Part shown: in pieces, positions 52,927 through 62,360 of the stretch
Position numbering within the stretch: the stretch's first letter is position 1
Layout of the letters: every line of letters starts with the position of its first letter
DNA from: Carnobacterium sp. 17-4
GTDB lineage: Bacteria > Bacillota > Bacilli > Lactobacillales > Carnobacteriaceae
Direction of reading: 5' to 3'
Length of the DNA: 64,000 nt
Assembly: GCF_000195575.1 (NCBI RefSeq)
Contig: NC_015391.1
Span: 1,600,363-1,664,362, forward strand
Notes under the pieces: model-generated
Database searches by the model: none
Told to the model about the DNA's origin: nothing
Seen by the model: the letters and a program-made list of their open reading frames with translations, nothing else
Translations under genes and position numbers: made by a program

Positions 52927-54711
52927 TTATTCACTTACTTTTCCAGTGATTATTTCCTTGTCTTCTTTCGTTACTTCAGGGACATTTTCTTTTACTTCAA
53001 TAATAGTTTCACTAGATGACAGGTCATCTGCCTCATCTACTTCTTGAGATTCATTAACCGGTTCTTCAACCACTTCTTTTGCGGTTTCTTCTACAGTTAA
53101 TGTTGAACTTTCTACTTCCGTAGCCGAACCTTCTTCACTTTCTTCAATACTACTTTGTGTTATAACATCTTCTACTAATCGCTCTTCATTAAGAGAACTT
53201 TTTCTCAACATACTAGTATCTTTTTGTACTTCTAGTTTTCTAGATATAACCAAAGTATTACCTGTATCACCTGTGATTTTTACGTGTAAGGTAGCCTCAT
53301 CCATTTTTTCACTGGAATTTAACCACAAAGAAAATGTTTTATCTGTATTTACCTTACTTGATACTAGCTTTCCATTCTTTCCAGTTATCTCAACATTAAC
53401 TATTTCATTCTTTAATTGAACTTCTTTGAAATCTTCTGGTCTTACATATGGGGCTGAATTATAGTAAAGATGTTTAATAGATAAAACTCGTTCATTATCT
53501 GTTAAATTAATTGACAATTGCGCATAATTTTTTGGCGCATCTGGTATATCAGTATTTAAGACTAATCTAGTGGCAAAAAAATGATCATAATTATGGGAAT
53601 TATCATAATAGTGATATTCATTTGATCCATACATACCATACTTTTGAATTTCAATATTTAAGCTTATAGCATATCTATCTTTATTTGATTGAGCAAGTGA
53701 TGTATCTGGATTTGATGGATTATAAACATATTCATCTTCTAGTTTAAATGTAATGATTATCCCATGATGCTCTTCATTTAGTTCTATAGATTCTACTTTG
53801 ATAGCTGCTTCGTTCGTTGTTAATTTAGAAACAATAAACATTTCTTTAGTTTCTTTTGTACCATTATTTTTAGTAATGATTTTTGTTAAAGGTTCACTTT
53901 CTGGCAACTGAATATATAACATAGCTTTGTTTAAATTTTTAATTTTTTTTGTTTCTGAATTAATTGTTTCATATGTTTCACTAAAAAGCATTTTCATATT
54001 TTCTAAACTATAGGTATAATTTCCATGCACAGCATTAATAAATGTTCTTTCAGCTGGCCAATAACTTTCTTTTTCAACAACTTCAGGGATAAGCGAAACA
54101 ATATTTTCTATTGTTAACGTATCAGAAAACAAATTATCATTCGCATCTAAAGCATTCGATTGAATCAATCTAAATGTAACCCTAATTTTCACCTTTTCTT
54201 CTTTAGTAGGAATACTACTTTTATACGAAATACTTACTGGTACTTTACCTACTGAATCAGGATCAATAACGACATCACTACCACTCGTATTTTTCACAAA
54301 AGTATAGCTATCTGAGTTTAAATTTGTTCCAGTTGCTTCTACATTATTTACTGTACTTCCTAAATCAATTGAAATGACCATATTTTTTAGTTCATCAGTT
54401 GTCAATATTGATTCATCTTCTTTTGTCACATCTATTTTATAAGCTAACTTCGCAGACAAACTTCCTTTATTTACAAGAATACTTGTAGCAATTTTAACTG
54501 ACTCTCCTTCAGTAAATTTAACTGAATCAACAATTTTAGTTTCCTTTGGATCTAAATTAATGGTTCCAAATTCCAACTGAATTCCTAAAGTTTGATTGAC
54601 TGTATCACTAAACATTGCTTTTACAGGTATTGAAGGGGATAACATAAAAAAAGCAAAGCAAAACAAACTTATTTTTACTAAACCTATTAAATCTTTCTTT
54701 ATTTTCCTCAT
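52927..54711 (-). CDS. large secreted protein with TasA-like start and acidic tail
   Basis: 594 residues. An N-terminal signal-like helix (ISLFCFAFFML) is followed by SIPVKAMFSDTVNQTLGIQL and EFGTINLDPKE, which match the start of mature TasA/CalY-type proteins. A long beta-rich part follows, then a Glu/Ser-rich, highly acidic C-terminus (about 510-594) with no LPXTG. GGAGGGATAAT before ATG 54711 sets the start. It follows the TasA-like gene by 113 bases behind a terminator. It is probably a cell-surface or matrix partner processed by SipW. Confidence 0.75.
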   Translation of the reverse strand: MRKIKKDLIGLVKISLFCFAFFMLSPSIPVKAMFSDTVNQTLGIQLEFGTINLDPKETKIVDSVKFTEGESVKIATSILVNKGSLSAKLAYKIDVTKEDESILTTDELKNMVISIDLGSTVNNVEATGTNLNSDSYTFVKNTSGSDVVIDPDSVGKVPVSISYKSSIPTKEEKVKIRVTFRLIQSNALDANDNLFSDTLTIENIVSLIPEVVEKESYWPAERTFINAVHGNYTYSLENMKMLFSETYETINSETKKIKNLNKAMLYIQLPESEPLTKIITKNNGTKETKEMFIVSKLTTNEAAIKVESIELNEEHHGIIITFKLEDEYVYNPSNPDTSLAQSNKDRYAISLNIEIQKYGMYGSNEYHYYDNSHNYDHFFATRLVLNTDIPDAPKNYAQLSINLTDNERVLSIKHLYYNSAPYVRPEDFKEVQLKNEIVNVEITGKNGKLVSSKVNTDKTFSLWLNSSEKMDEATLHVKITGDTGNTLVISRKLEVQKDTSMLRKSSLNEERLVEDVITQSSIEESEEGSATEVESSTLTVEETAKEVVEEPVNESQEVDEADDLSSSETIIEVKENVPEVTKEDKEIITGKVSE

Positions 54712-54751
54712 ATTATCCCTCCTCTTCCTCATTCTAAGCACAAAAAATTCT

Positions 54752-54787
54752 GAATAAAAAACGATTAGATAACTATCCTAACCGTTT
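54752..54787 (-). terminator. intrinsic terminator after TasA-like gene
   Basis: AACGGTTAG pairs with CTAATCGTT (one mismatch), followed by TTTTTATTC on the minus strand. Confidence 0.75.
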
Positions 54788-54824
54788 CTAGTAAACTATA
54801 AATTAAAATTTTATTTAGTATTTT

Positions 54825-55484
54825 TTAATTTTTCACTATTTGATTGGCTGTAATTTTTAGATTTTCTTTCAGAAAGTCCGAAACAACTAAATCTAAATTT
54901 TGATTCCCTGCTTTTTCTTTAGCTTTTGTATTAATATTAAAATCAGCAGCAGCATTTTCATCTACTTTAATTACAACAGTATATGTTGTTTGACTATCTT
55001 CACCAGAATTTGCCTTAAGCACTAATTTATTTTTGAAATCTTTAATAGTAATAATAAACGGAGTACCTTTAATTGGGTGCTCACCATTTATTTGTTCTTG
55101 AGTTAATGAATCTAATTTTAGTGGTTCTTTAGTTGGATTCATTTTTCCGCTATATTCTAATGTCACGTTTGTATCAAGAGATCCTGTATTCTTAATAGTA
55201 TAGTGTCTTGTAAAAAAATCTCCTGGTTTAACATTTTTAAACGAGTAATTTTGTGTCTTTTCATCTTTACCTAACTTATTCAAGTCAGTACCAGCTGCCG
55301 TTGGTACCCACTCTGAATCTTCTGTGCTTATTTCTACATTGCCTAGTTCTAATACGATATTTGCTTGTTGTTTTGCACTATCTGAAAAGTAAGCCCGAGT
55401 TCCATATGCTGCCACACTGATAATTAATAATGTCCCTAGTAAAATTGGTAATTTTTTCATTCTGCTTGCTGATGCTTTTTTCAT
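54825..55484 (-). CDS. tasA: TasA/CalY-like surface fibre protein
   Basis: 219 residues. A basic N-terminus (KKASASRMKK) and one hydrophobic helix form a signal peptide; the mature part starts near AYFSDSAKQQANIVLELGNV. The pattern NVKPGDFFTRHYTIKNTGSL is that of TasA/camelysin proteins, which form extracellular fibres after cleavage by SipW. ATG 55484 follows GGAGGAGATCATAAAA. The gene is downstream of sipW but separated by a 600-base gap and a terminator, so it likely has its own promoter. Confidence 0.82.
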   Translation of the reverse strand: MKKASASRMKKLPILLGTLLIISVAAYGTRAYFSDSAKQQANIVLELGNVEISTEDSEWVPTAAGTDLNKLGKDEKTQNYSFKNVKPGDFFTRHYTIKNTGSLDTNVTLEYSGKMNPTKEPLKLDSLTQEQINGEHPIKGTPFIITIKDFKNKLVLKANSGEDSQTTYTVVIKVDENAAADFNINTKAKEKAGNQNLDLVVSDFLKENLKITANQIVKN

Positions 55485-56086
55485 TTTTATGATCTCCTCC
55501 GTTATTTTAATTGTTTGCTTGTTTCCAACACTCGTAACTATAATCCCGGATAAAAAAGAAGTCAAACAATATAGTATTTATTCAAAAAAATAAATATTCA
55601 TCATCTAAGATGTAACTTTTGTTTCTAAATACTCAAAAAAAAATCACTTTGATATTCAAACAAATTGCATTATGATGGCCTTTCACGGAGTGTTTGTTAT
55701 ATTTCTGTACAAGAACGCATGTAATACTAAACAGATTCACGACATTTGTTTATAGATAAAAAGTATAAAATGAATATTTAATGAATAAAAAAGTTTTATT
55801 CTCTATCTTTTATTAGCATTAACTGTTATTTTATGAAAAAATGACTATTTTTTTGTATGAAGTATAAAAATTAGGATAGACACTTATTAGTTTTATTTTT
55901 TTTAATCATTTTTTTGCCCACGATAACTAGATTAATTCCTAAAAAAAAAAAGCAAAAAAAATAGAAAGCAGATAATTTATCCACTTTCTATTTAATAAAG
56001 ACGCTTACTATTGCATAAATATTTTTATGTCTAAAATGTGACAATTTAATACACAGTCATTTAACAAACAGTTGTTTATTAATTAA
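55485..56086. other. 602-bp gap between sipW and TasA-like gene
   Basis: It contains the sipW terminator on the right side and a weak minus-strand promoter candidate (TATACT at 55762-55767, TTTATT 16 bases before it). It is extremely AT-rich with long A and T runs. No gene is seen. Confidence 0.5.
55941..55993 (-). terminator. intrinsic terminator after sipW
   Basis: AAATAGAAAG pairs with CTTTCTATTT, then a long T-rich run follows on the minus strand. Confidence 0.8.
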
Positions 56087-56587
56087 TCACTCTACTATTT
56101 CATCCTTTGTTGTTGGATTAAGATAAAGGTAGATAAGATAGATTCCCATTAAAGCGATAATTACTGCAAAAGCAATTGGTTTTTGCAAAAACGTAATGAC
56201 ATACCCAAAGTATGGAATTAGTATTTTTTGAGTTCCTATATAAGACTCCGCTATTACAAAACCTTGATCTTGGATATTGTTAGCATCACCTTTTGTTACT
56301 AATCCATCAGCTGTTCTGTCCACTACTCTATGCGTGACAAGTTCTTGATTGTATTGAAATGTAATAATATCTTTTTTATTCACGTTATCAAAAGGATCCA
56401 TTTTAACAATGATAAAATCGCCTACTGCTATTTTAGGTTCCATACTTCCGCTTACCACGGTATATCCTTTGTATCCAAATAATCCGCTGCTTTCAGGAGC
56501 AGAAAAGAAACTGATTCCAGCAATCGCTACAAAAATAAAGACGACTATTACAGCTATAAAGGTTCCAATAGTTTTTACTATTTTCAT
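56087..56587 (-). CDS. sipW: SipW-type signal peptidase I
   Basis: A 166-residue membrane protease. N-terminal (about 7-26) and C-terminal (about 135-158) helices flank the catalytic part, with VVSGSMEPKIAVGDFIIV holding the catalytic Ser (about residue 48) and ELVTHRVVD holding the His (about 86). His in place of Lys marks the archaeal/eukaryotic-like ER type, as in SipW. Its usual substrates are TasA-like proteins, which lie downstream. GAGGAAATAATAAC precedes the ATG. Confidence 0.93.
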   Translation of the reverse strand: MKIVKTIGTFIAVIVVFIFVAIAGISFFSAPESSGLFGYKGYTVVSGSMEPKIAVGDFIIVKMDPFDNVNKKDIITFQYNQELVTHRVVDRTADGLVTKGDANNIQDQGFVIAESYIGTQKILIPYFGYVITFLQKPIAFAVIIALMGIYLIYLYLNPTTKDEIVE

Positions 56588-56687: not shown

Positions 56688-57818
56688 TTATTCGTAAAAT
56701 ACTTTATCAATTAAACACCCATTATATTCATTTTTCAACTGACTTTTAGACAAATTAGGTCGAACGACATACAAAGACTGAGATGTATGGTAAGCATTTG
56801 TTAATCCTATCATGATACTTTCAGTTATAGATTTATCCTGTAGACGGTTAAATACGAGACCCGCACAAAAAGCTTCATTCATTCCCCAATTATAATGGTC
56901 ATTTTGTTCACTTGAATAATTAAAAATATGAACACCATCTTTTTGAGATCCATAAGCAATTTTGGTGCTTCCTTTAGAGACAAAAACATGTTCAGGTCCT
57001 TTTCCATTATTCAACCATTTTTCTACAGCCTCTTTTAAATCGTCATCGGTTTTGATGATCATATTAAAATGAGCCTCCGTTTCACTGCATTTCGTGATTA
57101 GTACATTTATTCCTTCTAAATAACTAGGTAGATTCGATAACCTTTGAACAGATACAGTTAACAAAGCAATAGGTACCTCATACTTAACGGCAAAACTAAT
57201 TAAAAATTCAATTGTTTCCTTAGGACAGTTTAAATCAATAATGATGTACTTTGAACGTTTTAAAACTGATAAATGCTTATTGATCCAATCAGGTGTCATT
57301 TTATCAAAAATATCTACTTCGGCTAAGCCTAAGACCATTTTACCGTCTACACCAATTACTTCCATAAATGTTCCAGTAGGACATCCTTCAATTGAATCGA
57401 CAGCTTTAATATTCATGAAATGTTCCGAATGACTTTCAATCATCTTCCACTCAGCGTCATTTCCAGCAACCGAAAACAACATCACTTTTTCTTCTAAACG
57501 ACCTAAATTTTCAGCAACATTGCGTGCGACACCCCCAACATTTGTACGAGATTGCACATTATTTGATGTTCCTTGAACCAACGCATCCTTAACTAAGTAT
57601 CGACGGTCAATATTCGCTCCACCAATGCAGATAATTGGTTCTTCATCATTTAACACATATGCCTTACCCAATAAATAGTCTTTTTTTACAAGTCCTGAAA
57701 TGAGATTTGCTGTAGCCGAACGCGACAATCCAATTAAATTTGCCAGCTCTTGTTGGGCTATAAAGGGATTTTCACGAATGGTTTCTAAAATTAGTTTTTC
57801 CTTTTCATTAAGGCTCAT
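56688..57818 (-). CDS. winged-helix protein with PfkB-like kinase domain, altered catalytic motif
   Basis: 376 residues. The N-terminal winged helix (ILETIRENPFIAQQELANLI, GLSRSATANLISGL) is fused to a PfkB-fold domain that starts IICIGGANIDRRYL and includes TNVGGVARNVAENL. The usual C-terminal GAGDAF motif, with the catalytic Asp and anion hole, is GMNEAF here (312-317), so kinase activity is doubtful. It may act as a ligand-sensing regulator. The start is ATG 57818 after GGAAGGG. It is 86 bases downstream of the MurE paralogue and probably cotranscribed. Confidence 0.85.
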   Translation of the reverse strand: MSLNEKEKLILETIRENPFIAQQELANLIGLSRSATANLISGLVKKDYLLGKAYVLNDEEPIICIGGANIDRRYLVKDALVQGTSNNVQSRTNVGGVARNVAENLGRLEEKVMLFSVAGNDAEWKMIESHSEHFMNIKAVDSIEGCPTGTFMEVIGVDGKMVLGLAEVDIFDKMTPDWINKHLSVLKRSKYIIIDLNCPKETIEFLISFAVKYEVPIALLTVSVQRLSNLPSYLEGINVLITKCSETEAHFNMIIKTDDDLKEAVEKWLNNGKGPEHVFVSKGSTKIAYGSQKDGVHIFNYSSEQNDHYNWGMNEAFCAGLVFNRLQDKSITESIMIGLTNAYHTSQSLYVVRPNLSKSQLKNEYNGCLIDKVFYE

Positions 57819-57904
57819 TGTAGTTTTCCCTTCCTGAGTTACATTTTTGTGATTGTTTAAATTTAATTCGTTCATGAACAAAACAAAAATTGATTGCTTA
57901 ATTA

Positions 57905-59368
57905 TTAATGACCTGACGTTGATAGTTTATTTTTTTGCAAATACAGAACTGTTTCTTGATCAGATTTTGTATTTAAATTATAGTTTTCTTTGTACAATTC
58001 ATGCCCCTTACCTAATAATAAAACCCAGTCGCCTGGTTGCGCATCCTTAATGGCTTTTTGTATAGCTAGTGTTCGATCCATGATAATACTCGTCGAATCT
58101 TCTACTTGGCATTCTTTTTGAATCATTACATAATCTGTGTACAATTTATCAATCGTTGAACCAAAAAGTTCCGTTACCGTTAGAATAGACGAGTCACTCA
58201 AACGAGTCACAATTTCAAGCATCGCTTTTCGTTTAGATGTATCACGGTTACCAGCAAACCCAAATACTGTGATAATATGATTCGCTCCATTGTTGATAGC
58301 CGTATTGATTGCTATTTCTAAGGCATCCGGTGTGTGCGCATAATCCACAACTACTGTTACATTGTTTTCTAAATGAAAGAGTTCAAATCGTCCTGAAATA
58401 CCTGTAAAATCTGACATATACGGTTTAACCTTTTCATATGGAACTCCTAACTCATGGACTGCACAGCTAGACATAGATAAATTATACAAGTTATGCATCC
58501 CAGGTAAAGGTGTACGTAGACTATACTCCATATTTTTATGCATTACTGATACGTCGTTGAGTTCTTTACTTAAAATTTGAACATTACTAAATGATTGTTC
58601 GCCTACTGTTAGAATTTTCTTACCTTCTGCAGTCAAATGCTCGATTAGTTTTAAGCCCCAACTGTCATCACTATTAATGATTGCTGTTCCATTTGGTTTA
58701 AGTTTTTGAAACAATAACGCTTTGCATTCAAAATATTCTTCCATAGTATTATGATAATCCAGATGATCATGTTGTAAATTATTAAATAGAGCATAATCAA
58801 ATTGAATCCCTTCTAAACGGTCTTGTTCCAGTCCTTGAGAAGAGACTTCCATAACAACAACTTGATCTGTTGACGCAACTAATAATTGATTGATTGTTTT
58901 CGCATTAGGGGTTGTATTAATAGTTTTGATTTTTTTACCGTTGATTTCATTGTGGATGGTTCCAATCGAGGAAACACTATAACCTTGTTTTTCTAATAAA
59001 TGTTTAATAAAGAAACTGATCGTTGTTTTACCATTTGTTCCAGTAATCCCTATCATAATTTTATCTTTTGAAGGATCTTTATAAAATAATTTCGCAACTT
59101 GTCCCAGTGCTTTTCGAGCACTTTTTACTTTTAGATAAGGAACCTCTAAATTCATAAGTTCGTTTTCTCCGATAATTAAAATAGCTCCATTAATAATTGC
59201 TTGTTGAATATAAATGTGCCCATCTTTCTTATATCCTTTTATTGCAATAAAAACATAGCCCGGTTTGATTTCATTTGAATTATCGGTAATCCCTTTCACT
59301 TCTAATGACTGATCCAAGGTGTCGCTGTATTCTAAATGACCCATTGTTAGCATCTCTTTTATTTTCAT
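57905..59368 (-). CDS. murE: MurE-family amide ligase, paralogue lacking DNPR-type motif
   Basis: 487 residues with the Mur ligase order: GITDNSNEIKPGYVFIAIKG, ATP loop GITGTNGKTT, NTTPNA, EVSSQGLEQDR, NLQHDHLDYH, VVVDYAHTPDALE and LLLGKGHE. YAHTPDAL and GKGHE identify MurE. Where MurE enzymes have DNPR (DAP) or a DNPA/DDPN-like motif (Lys), this protein reads ILTVTELFGST, so the added amino acid is uncertain. It is probably not the essential MurE. The start is ATG 59368, though its ribosome-binding site is distant. Confidence 0.87.
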   Translation of the reverse strand: MKIKEMLTMGHLEYSDTLDQSLEVKGITDNSNEIKPGYVFIAIKGYKKDGHIYIQQAIINGAILIIGENELMNLEVPYLKVKSARKALGQVAKLFYKDPSKDKIMIGITGTNGKTTISFFIKHLLEKQGYSVSSIGTIHNEINGKKIKTINTTPNAKTINQLLVASTDQVVVMEVSSQGLEQDRLEGIQFDYALFNNLQHDHLDYHNTMEEYFECKALLFQKLKPNGTAIINSDDSWGLKLIEHLTAEGKKILTVGEQSFSNVQILSKELNDVSVMHKNMEYSLRTPLPGMHNLYNLSMSSCAVHELGVPYEKVKPYMSDFTGISGRFELFHLENNVTVVVDYAHTPDALEIAINTAINNGANHIITVFGFAGNRDTSKRKAMLEIVTRLSDSSILTVTELFGSTIDKLYTDYVMIQKECQVEDSTSIIMDRTLAIQKAIKDAQPGDWVLLLGKGHELYKENYNLNTKSDQETVLYLQKNKLSTSGH

Positions 59369-59579
59369 TGTGATCAGCTTCTCCTCTTTTCCTTTGAATA
59401 CATACAAAGTGAAATTGTATTTTTTATTCTTTTGATTAATAAACACTACTTATTACGAGTTAAATCATTTTTCGTAATAATATTCAGTAGATATTCACTA
59501 TCTTAACCTAGATAATGCTTAAATTCAATTTACTTACCTTTTTTATAAAAAAATAATAAATAAAATAGATTTCTATTCA

Positions 59580-60003: not shown

Positions 60004-60047
60004 TAATAAAAAAATCACAGAGAAGATAAAGCATCTTCTCTGTGATT
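60004..60047 (-). terminator. intrinsic terminator downstream of PII-like gene
   Basis: AATCACAGAGAAGAT pairs perfectly with ATCTTCTCTGTGATT around AAAGC, followed by seven T on the minus strand. It is 160 bases past the stop. Confidence 0.92.
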
Positions 60048-60049
60048 CT

Positions 60050-60212
60050 TCTTTGTTTTTCTACGGAGCTAAACGTGACTCTTCGCATCCTTCTAGTTGA
60101 GTTCCGCACTCCAGACTTTCGGAAAAAACGTAATTCTTTCAGGGATGAAACATCCCTTCCAGAATTCCTTGTTTTTCTGTCAAGTCTAAGCGGTGTGCTA
60201 CACATCCTTTAG
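60050..60212 (-). repeat. hairpin-rich segment downstream of PII-like gene
   Basis: On the minus strand, CT..AGG-type starts recur at 60212, 60162 and 60114, each near a small hairpin (GTG.TAG.CAC; GGGATG-TTT-CATCCC; GAGT..ACTC). The later part, CTAGAAGGATGCG...AGAAAAACAAAG, resembles the first. It lies between the PII-like stop and the terminator, so it would be transcribed as a 3' untranslated region. Confidence 0.5.
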
Positions 60213-60877
60213 AATAAGCCTCTTGTGTTGGTTACGTCCATAGTGAAGAGTACACCGTTTCCAGGTTGTTCGATTTTTAGTGCATTACTGATGGATGCTA
60301 CCACGGCATCTGTGGTGTGTTGTTCTGTAAGGATCATCACTACTTCTTTTTCTGGTTCAATATCCATTGAGAAAAGTCGGCTAGTCTCGTGACTTCCAGA
60401 ACCACGAGCATTGATGATTGTTCCTCCTTGAGATCCAGCTGCAACGGCAGCATCGATCACTTCTTCAGCTTGTCCACGATCTACAATTGTAAAAATAGCT
60501 TGATGCATAATATCCTCAACCTTTCTGCCGTGAGCATCCGTTTTATAGACGCAATTTCGGTTTCCTAATAAATTCGCAATAGGAATCGTAAATGCAATTC
60601 CTCTATTTCTTTTTTTTAATTGCAATTTTTCTGTTAAAGCATCTAATGCTGTTTCAGCCGTTTCTTTACGTGCAGCCATAATTAAAACTTCTTTTTTGAC
60701 ATCTTCTAGTCCAAAAAATTTCAATGCTGAATTAGACGCTGTACCTAAACCTCGAAAAACCGTTCCTCCTGATACGCCATTCTTTTTAGCAATTTGCAGA
60801 GCTTTACTACCCGCACCATTATTCACTACTAAGCATAACAAATCATAATCCATTCCTTCAATAATCGCGTTACTCAT
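60209..60877 (-). CDS. tandem PII-like signalling protein
   Basis: 222 residues made of two PII-type halves. The first half has YDLLCLVVNNGAGSKALQIA, GVSGGTVFRGLGTASN and FFGLEDVKKEVLIM; the second has QAIFTIVDRGQAEEVIDAA, GSQGGTIINARGSGSHETSR and FSMDIEPEKEVVMIL. GGT and RG match the PII T-loop flank and nucleotide site. No classic uridylylated Tyr is evident. The start overlaps the DUF1538 stop by eight bases, so the two are coupled; it probably senses a nucleotide and controls that membrane protein. Confidence 0.9.
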   Translation of the reverse strand: MSNAIIEGMDYDLLCLVVNNGAGSKALQIAKKNGVSGGTVFRGLGTASNSALKFFGLEDVKKEVLIMAARKETAETALDALTEKLQLKKRNRGIAFTIPIANLLGNRNCVYKTDAHGRKVEDIMHQAIFTIVDRGQAEEVIDAAVAAGSQGGTIINARGSGSHETSRLFSMDIEPEKEVVMILTEQHTTDAVVASISNALKIEQPGNGVLFTMDVTNTRGLF

Positions 60878-62360
60878 TCGATCGGAGTCCTCCTTTACGA
60901 GATTTAATTTTAAACAATATACCAAGTATTTCTAATGTGATAATCGGCATCATAGCCACCATTGCGATCATACCAAATCCATCTAATAAGACATTTGCTC
61001 CTTCAATCGATTCAGCTGCTCCTTGTACAAAGGCCAAAATAAAGGTTGCTGTCATAGGACCTGAAGCTACTCCACCAGCATCAAATGCCATTCCGACAAA
61101 CATTTTTGGCGTAACATACATCAATCCTATGGCCAAAATATATCCTGGTAAAATGAAATGCCATAATTGCAACCCTGGAATTAAGATACGAATCATTGAT
61201 AAAAGAACCGCTAATCCAACACCAATGGATAAAGCTGTTAAAACCACTTTTCTCCTTACATAACCGTTCGTGACATCTTCAATTTGATGAGTTAAAACGT
61301 ATACAGCCGGCTCGGCTAATATGGTTACAATTCCTAATACAAAAGCTACGATTAATACATAAATGCTGTTGTCTAATGCAGCTACAGTATATCCTACCAC
61401 ACTTCCAACTTCCATGAAACCAGCATTTACTCCAACTAAGAAAATAACTAAACCTACAAAAACATAGAAAGCTCCTTTTAGGATTTTCATTAACTTTTTC
61501 TTTGATAGTTTCAAGAAAAAGACTTGGTAAATCAAGAAAATACTGACAATAGGTACTAAAGCAATTAATATTTCTTTTGTAATAGTAGGAAAATGATGAA
61601 TAAATGGTGCAATCACCGATTTAGACCCTGTTAAATCTACTGCTAAACTTCCTGAAAGTTCATCTTGTCCGCCAATAATGTTCATCAGCATGACAGCTAT
61701 AATGGCTCCTGAAGAAGAAATGGCTACTAAACCAAAGCTATCTTTTTCAGATGCTTTCCCGTCTTTTTTCAAATTTGATACACCTAATGCTAACGCCAGC
61801 ATGAATGGTACTGTTAGTGCACCTGTAGTAGCTCCCGAAGCATCAAACGCCATTGCTAGGAATTCATTTGATGTAAATAGTGCTAGTAAAAAAATAACAA
61901 AATAAATTCCAGTCAATAATTTGTATAACGGAATATTAAACACAATTCGCAATAAACCAATGGTCATCATGACTGCGATCCCAATAGAAACATAAATCAA
62001 TATGCTCATATTGTCGATAACGCCTCCAGTAACATCCGCAATTTGATTAGCTAAAATATGCAAATCGGGTTCAGCGATTGAAATAAAGAATCCCAGCACA
62101 AGTCCAGCGATAACGACGACCCAAACTTTATTGCTCTTGGCGACTCCTTTTCCTAAATTGGTTCCAATAGGGGTAATTCCTATATCTGTTCCTAATAAGA
62201 AAATAGCTAACCCAATAACCACAAACAAAGCACCCAATAAAAAGCGTAACAATAAACTAGTCTCAAGCGGTGCTATGGTAAAATTCAGTATTAAAACGAT
62301 CACAACGATCGGTAATACTGACAGTAAAACTTCTTTAAATTTTTCTGTAAGTATATTCAA
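60870..62360 (-). CDS. DUF1538 membrane protein, putative transporter
   Basis: 496 residues with about 12-14 helices and an internal duplication. Half one has VIGLAIFLLGTDIGITPIGT, ISIAEPDLHILANQI and MAFDASGATTGALTVPFML; half two has VGLVIFLVGVNAGFMEVGS, TILAEPAVYVLTHQI and MAFDAGGVASGPMTATFIL. The paired FDA(S/G)G motifs in inverted-repeat-like positions suggest a transporter fold. The start is TTG 62360 after AAAGGATG. The family has no established substrate. Coupled to the PII-like gene. Confidence 0.92.
   Translation of the reverse strand: MNILTEKFKEVLLSVLPIVVIVLILNFTIAPLETSLLLRFLLGALFVVIGLAIFLLGTDIGITPIGTNLGKGVAKSNKVWVVVIAGLVLGFFISIAEPDLHILANQIADVTGGVIDNMSILIYVSIGIAVMMTIGLLRIVFNIPLYKLLTGIYFVIFLLALFTSNEFLAMAFDASGATTGALTVPFMLALALGVSNLKKDGKASEKDSFGLVAISSSGAIIAVMLMNIIGGQDELSGSLAVDLTGSKSVIAPFIHHFPTITKEILIALVPIVSIFLIYQVFFLKLSKKKLMKILKGAFYVFVGLVIFLVGVNAGFMEVGSVVGYTVAALDNSIYVLIVAFVLGIVTILAEPAVYVLTHQIEDVTNGYVRRKVVLTALSIGVGLAVLLSMIRILIPGLQLWHFILPGYILAIGLMYVTPKMFVGMAFDAGGVASGPMTATFILAFVQGAAESIEGANVLLDGFGMIAMVAMMPIITLEILGILFKIKSRKGGLRSNE

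Follow-up and report, generated by a model that had tools for sequence, protein, structure and literature searches.

A MurE-type ligase and a pseudokinase-type probable regulator in a probable genus-level operon found in Carnobacterium sp. 17-4

MurE ligases of the meso-diaminopimelate (mDAP) and lysine types carry the motif DNPR or DNPA. In the part of PMC3829189 on which we rely, Asp406 of Staphylococcus aureus MurE is described as binding lysine together with Glu460 and replacement of Asn407 by Ala as giving an inactive enzyme, and the Arg of the motif in Escherichia coli MurE is described as binding mDAP. Here we analyze a gene pair of Carnobacterium sp. 17-4, which encodes a MurE-type ligase and a probable regulator that combines a winged helix with a pseudouridine-kinase-like pseudokinase. 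The pair lies at positions 56688-59368 of a stretch of 64,000 nucleotides (NC_015391.1, positions 1,600,363 to 1,664,362), which we call the window and from whose first letter positions are counted. We use the name MurE2 for the clade of 33 sequences that contains the window ligase. MurE2 has in common with MurE of known structure (E. coli 1E8C, S. aureus 4C12, Thermotoga maritima 4BUB) the fold, the P-loop, the carbamylated Lys, and the motifs NTTP, SSxxLxxxR, DYAHT and GKGHE. It differs in forming a separate clade, in reading TELFG (DDLN in most relatives) in place of DNPR/DNPA, in being patchy and mobile and, in the window genus, in coming on top of a DNPR-bearing MurE.

The regulator can be compared with two groups of described proteins. 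Repressors of the ROK family such as NagC and Mlc consist of a DNA-binding domain and a sugar-kinase-like sensor without kinase activity; the resemblance is in idea only, as the regulator has a PfkB/ribokinase fold. E. coli pseudouridine kinase, PsuK (7VKP, 7VVA), and the fusions of a helix-turn-helix (HTH) domain to PsuK that are linked to psuG share the fold and the nucleoside-contact residues with the regulator, and the psuG-linked relatives share its winged helix as well. It differs from PsuK in that the catalytic Asp, the anion hole and the metal-binding Asn are replaced, and in that psuG is missing from 17 of the 18 genomes of the family. A further point of comparison is the copper and heavy-metal islands and plasmids of Bacillota, in which other MurE2 genes stand beside CopA/CopB, CopY, YdhK (DUF1541), DUF305 and multicopper oxidase genes; the window locus is itself not such an island. 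The literature matches listed, whose coverage largely excludes subscription journals, include no paper on this pairing or on a MurE paralogue in metal islands. A preliminary description had proposed that the two genes form a module in which a sensor-kinase-like regulator senses a muropeptide or nucleoside and controls a ligase that makes an alternative wall precursor.

Arrangement, leader and distribution of the gene pair

The two genes are adjacent open reading frames on the minus strand, as the preliminary description had stated, and the span 56688-59368 agrees with their likely ATG starts. MurE2 (57905..59368, 487 amino acids) starts at 59368 and the regulator (56688..57818, 376 amino acids) at 57818, both behind a ribosome-binding site, and the 86-nt gap between them (57819..57904, minus strand) contains no listed terminator-like site. 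Pairwise dN/dS values (0.076-0.193 among six copies of MurE2 and 0.050-0.154 for the regulator) show that selection on both genes is purifying. A palindrome noticed by eye in the gap was set aside, being absent from the other three genomes.

MurE2 is intact and adjoins the regulator in four of the six genomes of the genus (G000, G001, G002 and G004). In G003 a remnant of MurE2 is present at the same place (60% over 143 nt, E 1.3e-6; 41.1 bits, against 35.4 for the best of 300 shuffles); no remnant was found at the G005 locus (best E 0.11). Outside the genus there are eight loci linked to DUF1538, and in them the regulator comes after the gene for a P-II-like protein and MurE2 is absent. No HTH-PfkB gene, the type to which the regulator belongs, was found beside MurE2 when 26 other loci (L008, L057 and L058-L061, and L106-L125 with three open reading frames per side) were scanned by blastp with the window proteins, nor on inspection by eye of L009-L011. 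Among the 18 genomes of the family, a regulator-type gene occurs in 15 at E<=1e-30 and MurE2 in seven; the two are adjacent in four, all of one genus. The 12 family genomes outside the genus include three with MurE2 at E<=1e-90, in none of which it lies beside the regulator. Across the class, MurE2 is present at E<=1e-95 in at least 25 of 398 genomes, our own included, a lower bound because three candidates were scored per genome. As judged from these surveys, the adjacency is confined to the window genus: it is not limited to this strain and was not seen beyond the genus.

The leaders of the two genes are related. A promoter-like element, TTGAAT-N17-TAAGAT (59500..59528, minus strand), is found upstream of MurE2 in the window, and elements of the type TTGAA-N17/18-TAA..T are found 150-165 nt 5′ of MurE2 in four genomes of the genus. 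Where MurE2 is not intact, in G003 and G005, the element stands upstream of the regulator (by 341 and 230 nt, respectively), in leaders that align with those of MurE2: the G003 regulator leader matches the MurE2 leaders of G002 (81% over 75 nt, E 3e-15) and G000 (E 2e-14), and the G005 regulator leader matches that of G002 (74% over 50 nt, E 2e-6). A scan for consensus promoters performed at chance level (23 sites vs. 23.2) and does not include the element among its sites, so that the case for a promoter rests on conservation. Cotranscription, which had been suggested earlier, is likely, because the gap has no terminator-like site and the conserved element stands upstream of MurE2 or, where MurE2 is not intact, of the regulator. 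The shared leaders and the position of the element mean that MurE2 appears to lie inside the transcription unit of the regulator. An imperfect inverted repeat, AGATAGTGAATATCT (59489..59503, minus strand), overlaps the −10 and is a speculative candidate for an operator. The box AGATA-N5-TATCT has just one exact site in the genome, and no regulon can therefore be read from it; with at most one mismatch there are 10 matches (8 distinct places), compared to 4 for a reversed-pattern control.

The explanation that we favor, with modest confidence, is that the pair arose by insertion as a genus-level operon and is not a dedicated module, and that within it MurE2 acts as an isozyme and the regulator as a nucleoside sensor. 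A mobile accessory MurE2 would have landed behind the promoter of an older regulator gene and ahead of its coding sequence, and both genes would now be read from this promoter. Insertion is the simpler history because the regulator follows P-II without MurE2 at the eight loci outside the genus.

The ligase and its genomic company

The description of the first protein as a MurE-like ligase is borne out: its score against TIGR01085 is 405.6 bits (cut-off 257.3), its AlphaFold2 model has a predicted local distance difference test (pLDDT) value of 92.3, and the best Foldseek matches are solved MurE structures. Among named proteins, the nearest relative found (77%) belongs to Marinilactibacillus piezotolerans. 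A tree of 65 Mur ligases places the window protein inside the single separate clade of 33 sequences, which has a support of 100/100. It keeps the TGTNGKT P-loop, the carbamylated Lys (the K in FECKALLF), NTTP and SSQGLEQDR; the carbamylated Lys, the Arg of SSxxLxxxR and DYAH are kept in 33/33 members of the clade, and TGTNGKT in 32/33. The position of DNPR is occupied by TELFG in the window protein and the other genus copies (six in total), and otherwise by DDLN (24), DDLD (2) or DELH (1), so that none of the 33 has DNPR or DNPA. With TELFG in this place, the known mode of mDAP recognition, as far as described in the part of PMC3829189 cited above, is absent from MurE2, and the motif suggests an altered choice of third residue. 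It had been claimed that both proteins lack the usual catalytic or specificity residues; for the ligase this is correct for specificity and incorrect for catalysis, and the proposal that it makes an alternative wall precursor agrees with what the motif suggests.

The window genome has a second murE, with DNPR, in the division and cell wall (dcw) cluster. All six genomes of the genus have DapF and a DNPR-type MurE, which matches that of the window genome at 86-96%; its dcw position was checked in G000. The window genome also contains a third, more distant Mur ligase (L003/L076, 8872-10479; C2, about 150 kb) without DYAHTPDA and GKGHE, close relatives of which occur in G001 and G005. In two similar metagenome-assembled genomes of Clostridia, the murE genes (L013 5867-7352, L014 6001-7486) lose frame at almost the same point, after residue 402 or 409, and the tblastn match continues beyond.

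MurE2 is also carried on plasmids. Thirteen plasmid records matched it, of which two (H12 and H13) sit in ordinary dcw clusters and were dropped; the remaining 11 (H1-H11), from Planococcus, Cytobacillus, Peribacillus and Paenibacillus, were assigned to MurE2, outside the tree, on their similarity to the window protein (39-48%). Eight of these regions were opened (all except H6, H7 and H9), and each has a metal-associated gene within 6-10 kb of MurE2, coding for a P-type ATPase, a four-helix copper protein, YdhK, DUF305, a multicopper oxidase, a zinc/metal ABC (ATP-binding cassette) binding protein or ZIP. In H5, YdhK is the single gene of this kind and stands beside a ferric-reductase-like gene; YdhK/DUF1541 and F510_1955 were counted as metal-associated on our own reading of their company and their Met/His-rich sequence. 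As MurE2 is identical in H5 and H8, and in H10 and H11, there are about six distinct plasmid regions.

Using 18 references derived from the plasmids (11 metal, 7 envelope) and 38 control segments from 21 host genomes, a metal match was found at 9/29 non-plasmid MurE2 loci and at 1/38 controls (a ZIP; Fisher p 0.0016), and at 0/34 HTH-PfkB loci. Four loci (L008, L011, L060 and L061) carry heavy-metal P-type ATPases or repressors of the CopY, CsoR or ArsR type; with these added, the count becomes 13/29 MurE2 loci against 0/38 controls for the extra references, a post hoc figure in which the references were drawn from the same loci and related loci are not independent. Two of the loci are matching copper islands. 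In G002, a second MurE2 (77%) lies in an island (G002:C8:1446000-1473000, L253/L057) with CopB, CopA, CopY, GAPDH, a DUF1541 protein, Lgt, a PcsB-like hydrolase, a histidine kinase and a conjugation coupling protein, of type IV. The island in G014, another genome of the family (G014:C2:795000-811000, L060), built around a different MurE2, has CopA, CopB, GAPDH, Lgt, a PcsB-like protein and a histidine kinase that are 73-90% identical to their G002 counterparts. According to the part of PMC6350627 that we cite, copper targets the GAPDH of S. aureus, and it is therefore plausible that metal islands carry a set of replacement enzymes.

A Pfam tally of 131 of the 134 listed neighbor proteins (three long ones, at L117, L119 and L125, were omitted) gave DUF1541 in 4, D,D-carboxypeptidase (S11) in 3 and histidine-kinase domains in 7, and is too coarse to decide the matter. 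Genes of D,D-carboxypeptidase type directly adjoin MurE2 at L107, L108, L111 and L112. In G035 (L061 3923-9721) there is a row consisting of an ATP-grasp ligase, a second distant Mur ligase, MurE2, an Asp/Glu racemase and CopY, possibly an unusual cluster for a peptide or wall precursor. In viral contigs, 29 stretches fit a sequence pattern and none was confirmed as a relative.

The regulator and its neighbors

Pfam assigns PF13412 and PF00294 (HTH_24/MarR and PfkB) to the regulator. The AlphaFold2 model has a pLDDT of 89.5, and the top Foldseek match is E. coli PsuK. The Pfam scan found no HisKA or HATPase domains, which mark sensor histidine kinases, and the label of sensor-kinase-like regulator gives way to that of a homolog of pseudouridine kinase/ribokinase with a winged helix. 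A relation to UDP-sugars or muropeptides, which had been claimed for both proteins, is dropped for the regulator.

Residues were mapped onto E. coli PsuK by alignment, with their roles taken from the part of PMC9247573 on which we draw. On this basis the window protein keeps the nucleoside-contact residues N14, D16, G41, N45, N143 and S167, with Arg in place of K170; it has GMNE at the GAGD motif, which contains the catalytic Asp256, and Lys at the metal-binding Asn187, and hence does not have the catalytic residues of PsuK. A total of 16 HTH-PfkB loci were found in the 15 family genomes, and 14 of them adjoin DUF1538 and P-II genes. In these 14, N14, D16, G41, N143 and S167 are all present, N45 is present in 12, and position 170 is K or R in 13; all 14 have D256 replaced by E, A254-G255 (the anion hole) by xN and N187 by K, and have Trp at 252. 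Of the two remaining loci, the one in G009 is a second copy that is degenerate in another way, and the one in G010 is intact and psuG-linked.

Twenty further regulator loci were hand-picked from the 79 of 395 genomes of the order that had a match. All four psuG-linked rows of the residue table are intact, and a psuG-type neighbor is present at 13/13 rows with GAGD, as called by Pfam (L070, L071, L073), by genome search (G010) or by similarity to the L070 gene (9). Among 26 degenerate rows, psuG is a neighbor in none (15 by genome search, and 11 in the displayed stretches, some of which are short). These 26 form one clade with a support of 99/99; L075, an outgroup row of the tree, lies outside it. 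By genome search, the window genome is one of the 17 in the family without psuG (PF04227), and the exception carries GAGD. By its residues the regulator resembles a sensor of ligands, and those kept in the window protein would suit a nucleoside. Of the two ligands named in the preliminary description, the nucleoside is therefore compatible with the residues, and nothing links the regulator to muropeptides.

The gene order across the window genus is DUF1538, P-II, MurE2 where present, regulator and SipW. The DUF1538 membrane protein (60870..62360, minus strand; PF07556, 453.7 bits) belongs to the same family as UmpAB, a DUF1538 pair described as a Na+/H+ antiporter from Halomonas in the part of PMC5484666 consulted, and the P-II-like protein (60209..60925, minus strand; PF00543) adjoins the regulator outside the genus too. 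A hairpin 3′ of the P-II gene (60013..60047, the stem being listed on the plus strand), followed by a T-run on the minus strand seen by eye, is probably the end of the DUF1538/P-II unit. Downstream of the regulator is a SipW-like signal peptidase I (56087..56587, minus strand), which is above the cut-off for TIGR02228 (98.5 bits) and below that for NF046067 SipW (88.3 bits, cut-off 190). Such a gene lies 3′ of the regulator at 11 of the 14 DUF1538-linked family loci, and in G719 and G530. SipW-like signal peptidases with TasA/camelysin-like proteins adjoin the pseudokinase in three families of the order (window 52927-56587; L203; L206), and these may be a matrix-fiber locus controlled by the pseudokinase. 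In G002, a Mutator-family transposase (L052 5561-6739) occupies the place of the TasA-like genes of its relatives.

Origin and role of the pairing

Under the favored explanation, MurE2 would most likely be an isozyme for stress or backup that still makes UDP-MurNAc-tripeptide but recognizes the third residue differently. By analogy with the metal, Lgt, GAPDH and D,D-carboxypeptidase neighbors found elsewhere, it would keep precursor synthesis running under metal stress; for the window MurE2 the analogy is needed because the neighbors scanned by Pfam include no metal gene. The regulator would most likely bind, but not phosphorylate, a nucleoside such as pseudouridine, and binding would alter the contact of the winged helix with DNA, after the manner of repressors derived from sugar kinases. 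A more specific form of this reading is possible and, we think, doubtful: that MurE2 is a mobile metal-stress isozyme which, when copper or heavy metals poison the cell, replaces the housekeeping MurE, or takes a different third amino acid if diaminopimelate is no longer supplied, as one of a replacement set (GAPDH, Lgt, D,D-carboxypeptidase, lipoteichoic acid synthase, PBP2/RodA), and was captured in the window genus by a nucleoside-sensing pseudokinase.

Several observations weigh against this picture, beginning with the missing metal gene in the window. The genus MurE2 proteins lack even the Asp of DDLN and, given that loss and the inactivity reported for the Asn407-to-Ala form of S. aureus MurE in the cited part of PMC3829189, the window enzyme could be weak or inactive. 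A cysteine-poor and hence copper-proof MurE2 was considered, and the idea failed (2-8 Cys in the 33 MurE2 sequences vs. 1-10 in 31 other Mur ligases). By the references used, 16/29 MurE2 loci have no metal gene; several chromosomal loci, like the plasmid regions, are near-copies, and MurE2 plasmids were the source of the references. Envelope genes are not significantly enriched (6/29 MurE2 loci vs. 3/38 controls, p 0.16). For the regulator, the degenerate sequences of family f4 have Cys or Ala at N14, Ser at N45 and Lys, Thr or Ser at N187, and because of the differences at N14 and N45 the lineage around the window is the only one to keep the complete nucleoside-contact set. The ligands may thus differ, or have been lost, among the degenerate relatives, and Glu in place of the catalytic Asp would not by itself prove that kinase activity is lost.

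Three other explanations have to be weighed. In one, MurE2 adds a different third residue to make an alternative wall, independently of metals, and the metal genes are simply cargo of the same mobile elements. The motif, unlike DNPR and DNPA throughout the clade, agrees with this, as do the D,D-carboxypeptidase genes adjoining MurE2 at four loci (of which L111 and L112 are near-copies) and the ATP-grasp ligase, second Mur ligase and racemase beside it in G035; it has to contend with the enrichment of metal genes relative to segments of the same hosts and with the matching G002 and G014 islands, where MurE2 travels with CopA, CopB, GAPDH, Lgt and the PcsB-like gene, and we regard it as rather doubtful. 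It is unlikely that the two genes are chance neighbors, a mobile gene on its way out beside a regulator with which it shares neither function nor regulation: the absence of an intact MurE2 from two of the six genus genomes, one with a remnant, would be expected, whereas dN/dS of about 0.1 among the six copies and the conservation of the leader in four genomes would not.

The original proposal, in which the purpose of the regulator, as a sensor of a muropeptide or nucleoside, is to control a ligase for an alternative wall precursor, seems to us improbable. Same-strand adjacency in four of six genomes behind one conserved promoter-like element, the altered specificity motif and the retained nucleoside-contact residues all speak for it. 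It is opposed by the numbers in the family, where 15 of 18 genomes have the regulator, 7 have MurE2 and 4, of one genus, have them side by side; by the lack of HTH-PfkB neighbors at the 26 scanned and three inspected MurE2 loci; and by G003, which retains the regulator although its MurE2 has decayed. In other genera the regulator is found without MurE2, and at 14 of the 16 family loci its companions are DUF1538 and P-II. Neither a conserved module nor a dedicated wall-sensing module is supported.

We return to the favored explanation, an operon made by insertion, and to what it may mean. If MurE2 is a metal-stress isozyme, the synthesis of peptidoglycan precursors would be a target of metal poisoning that is protected by a carried replacement enzyme, and the swapping of poisoned enzymes would be a strategy of resistance alongside efflux. 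The changed motif of MurE2 offers a direct test of the choice of third residue. The regulator clade offers a clear example of a kinase that has probably become a sensor, for which the intact psuG-linked relatives are built-in controls. The gene pair is real and probably forms a genus-level operon, whose two proteins are each of interest in their own right, and it is not a conserved wall-sensing module.

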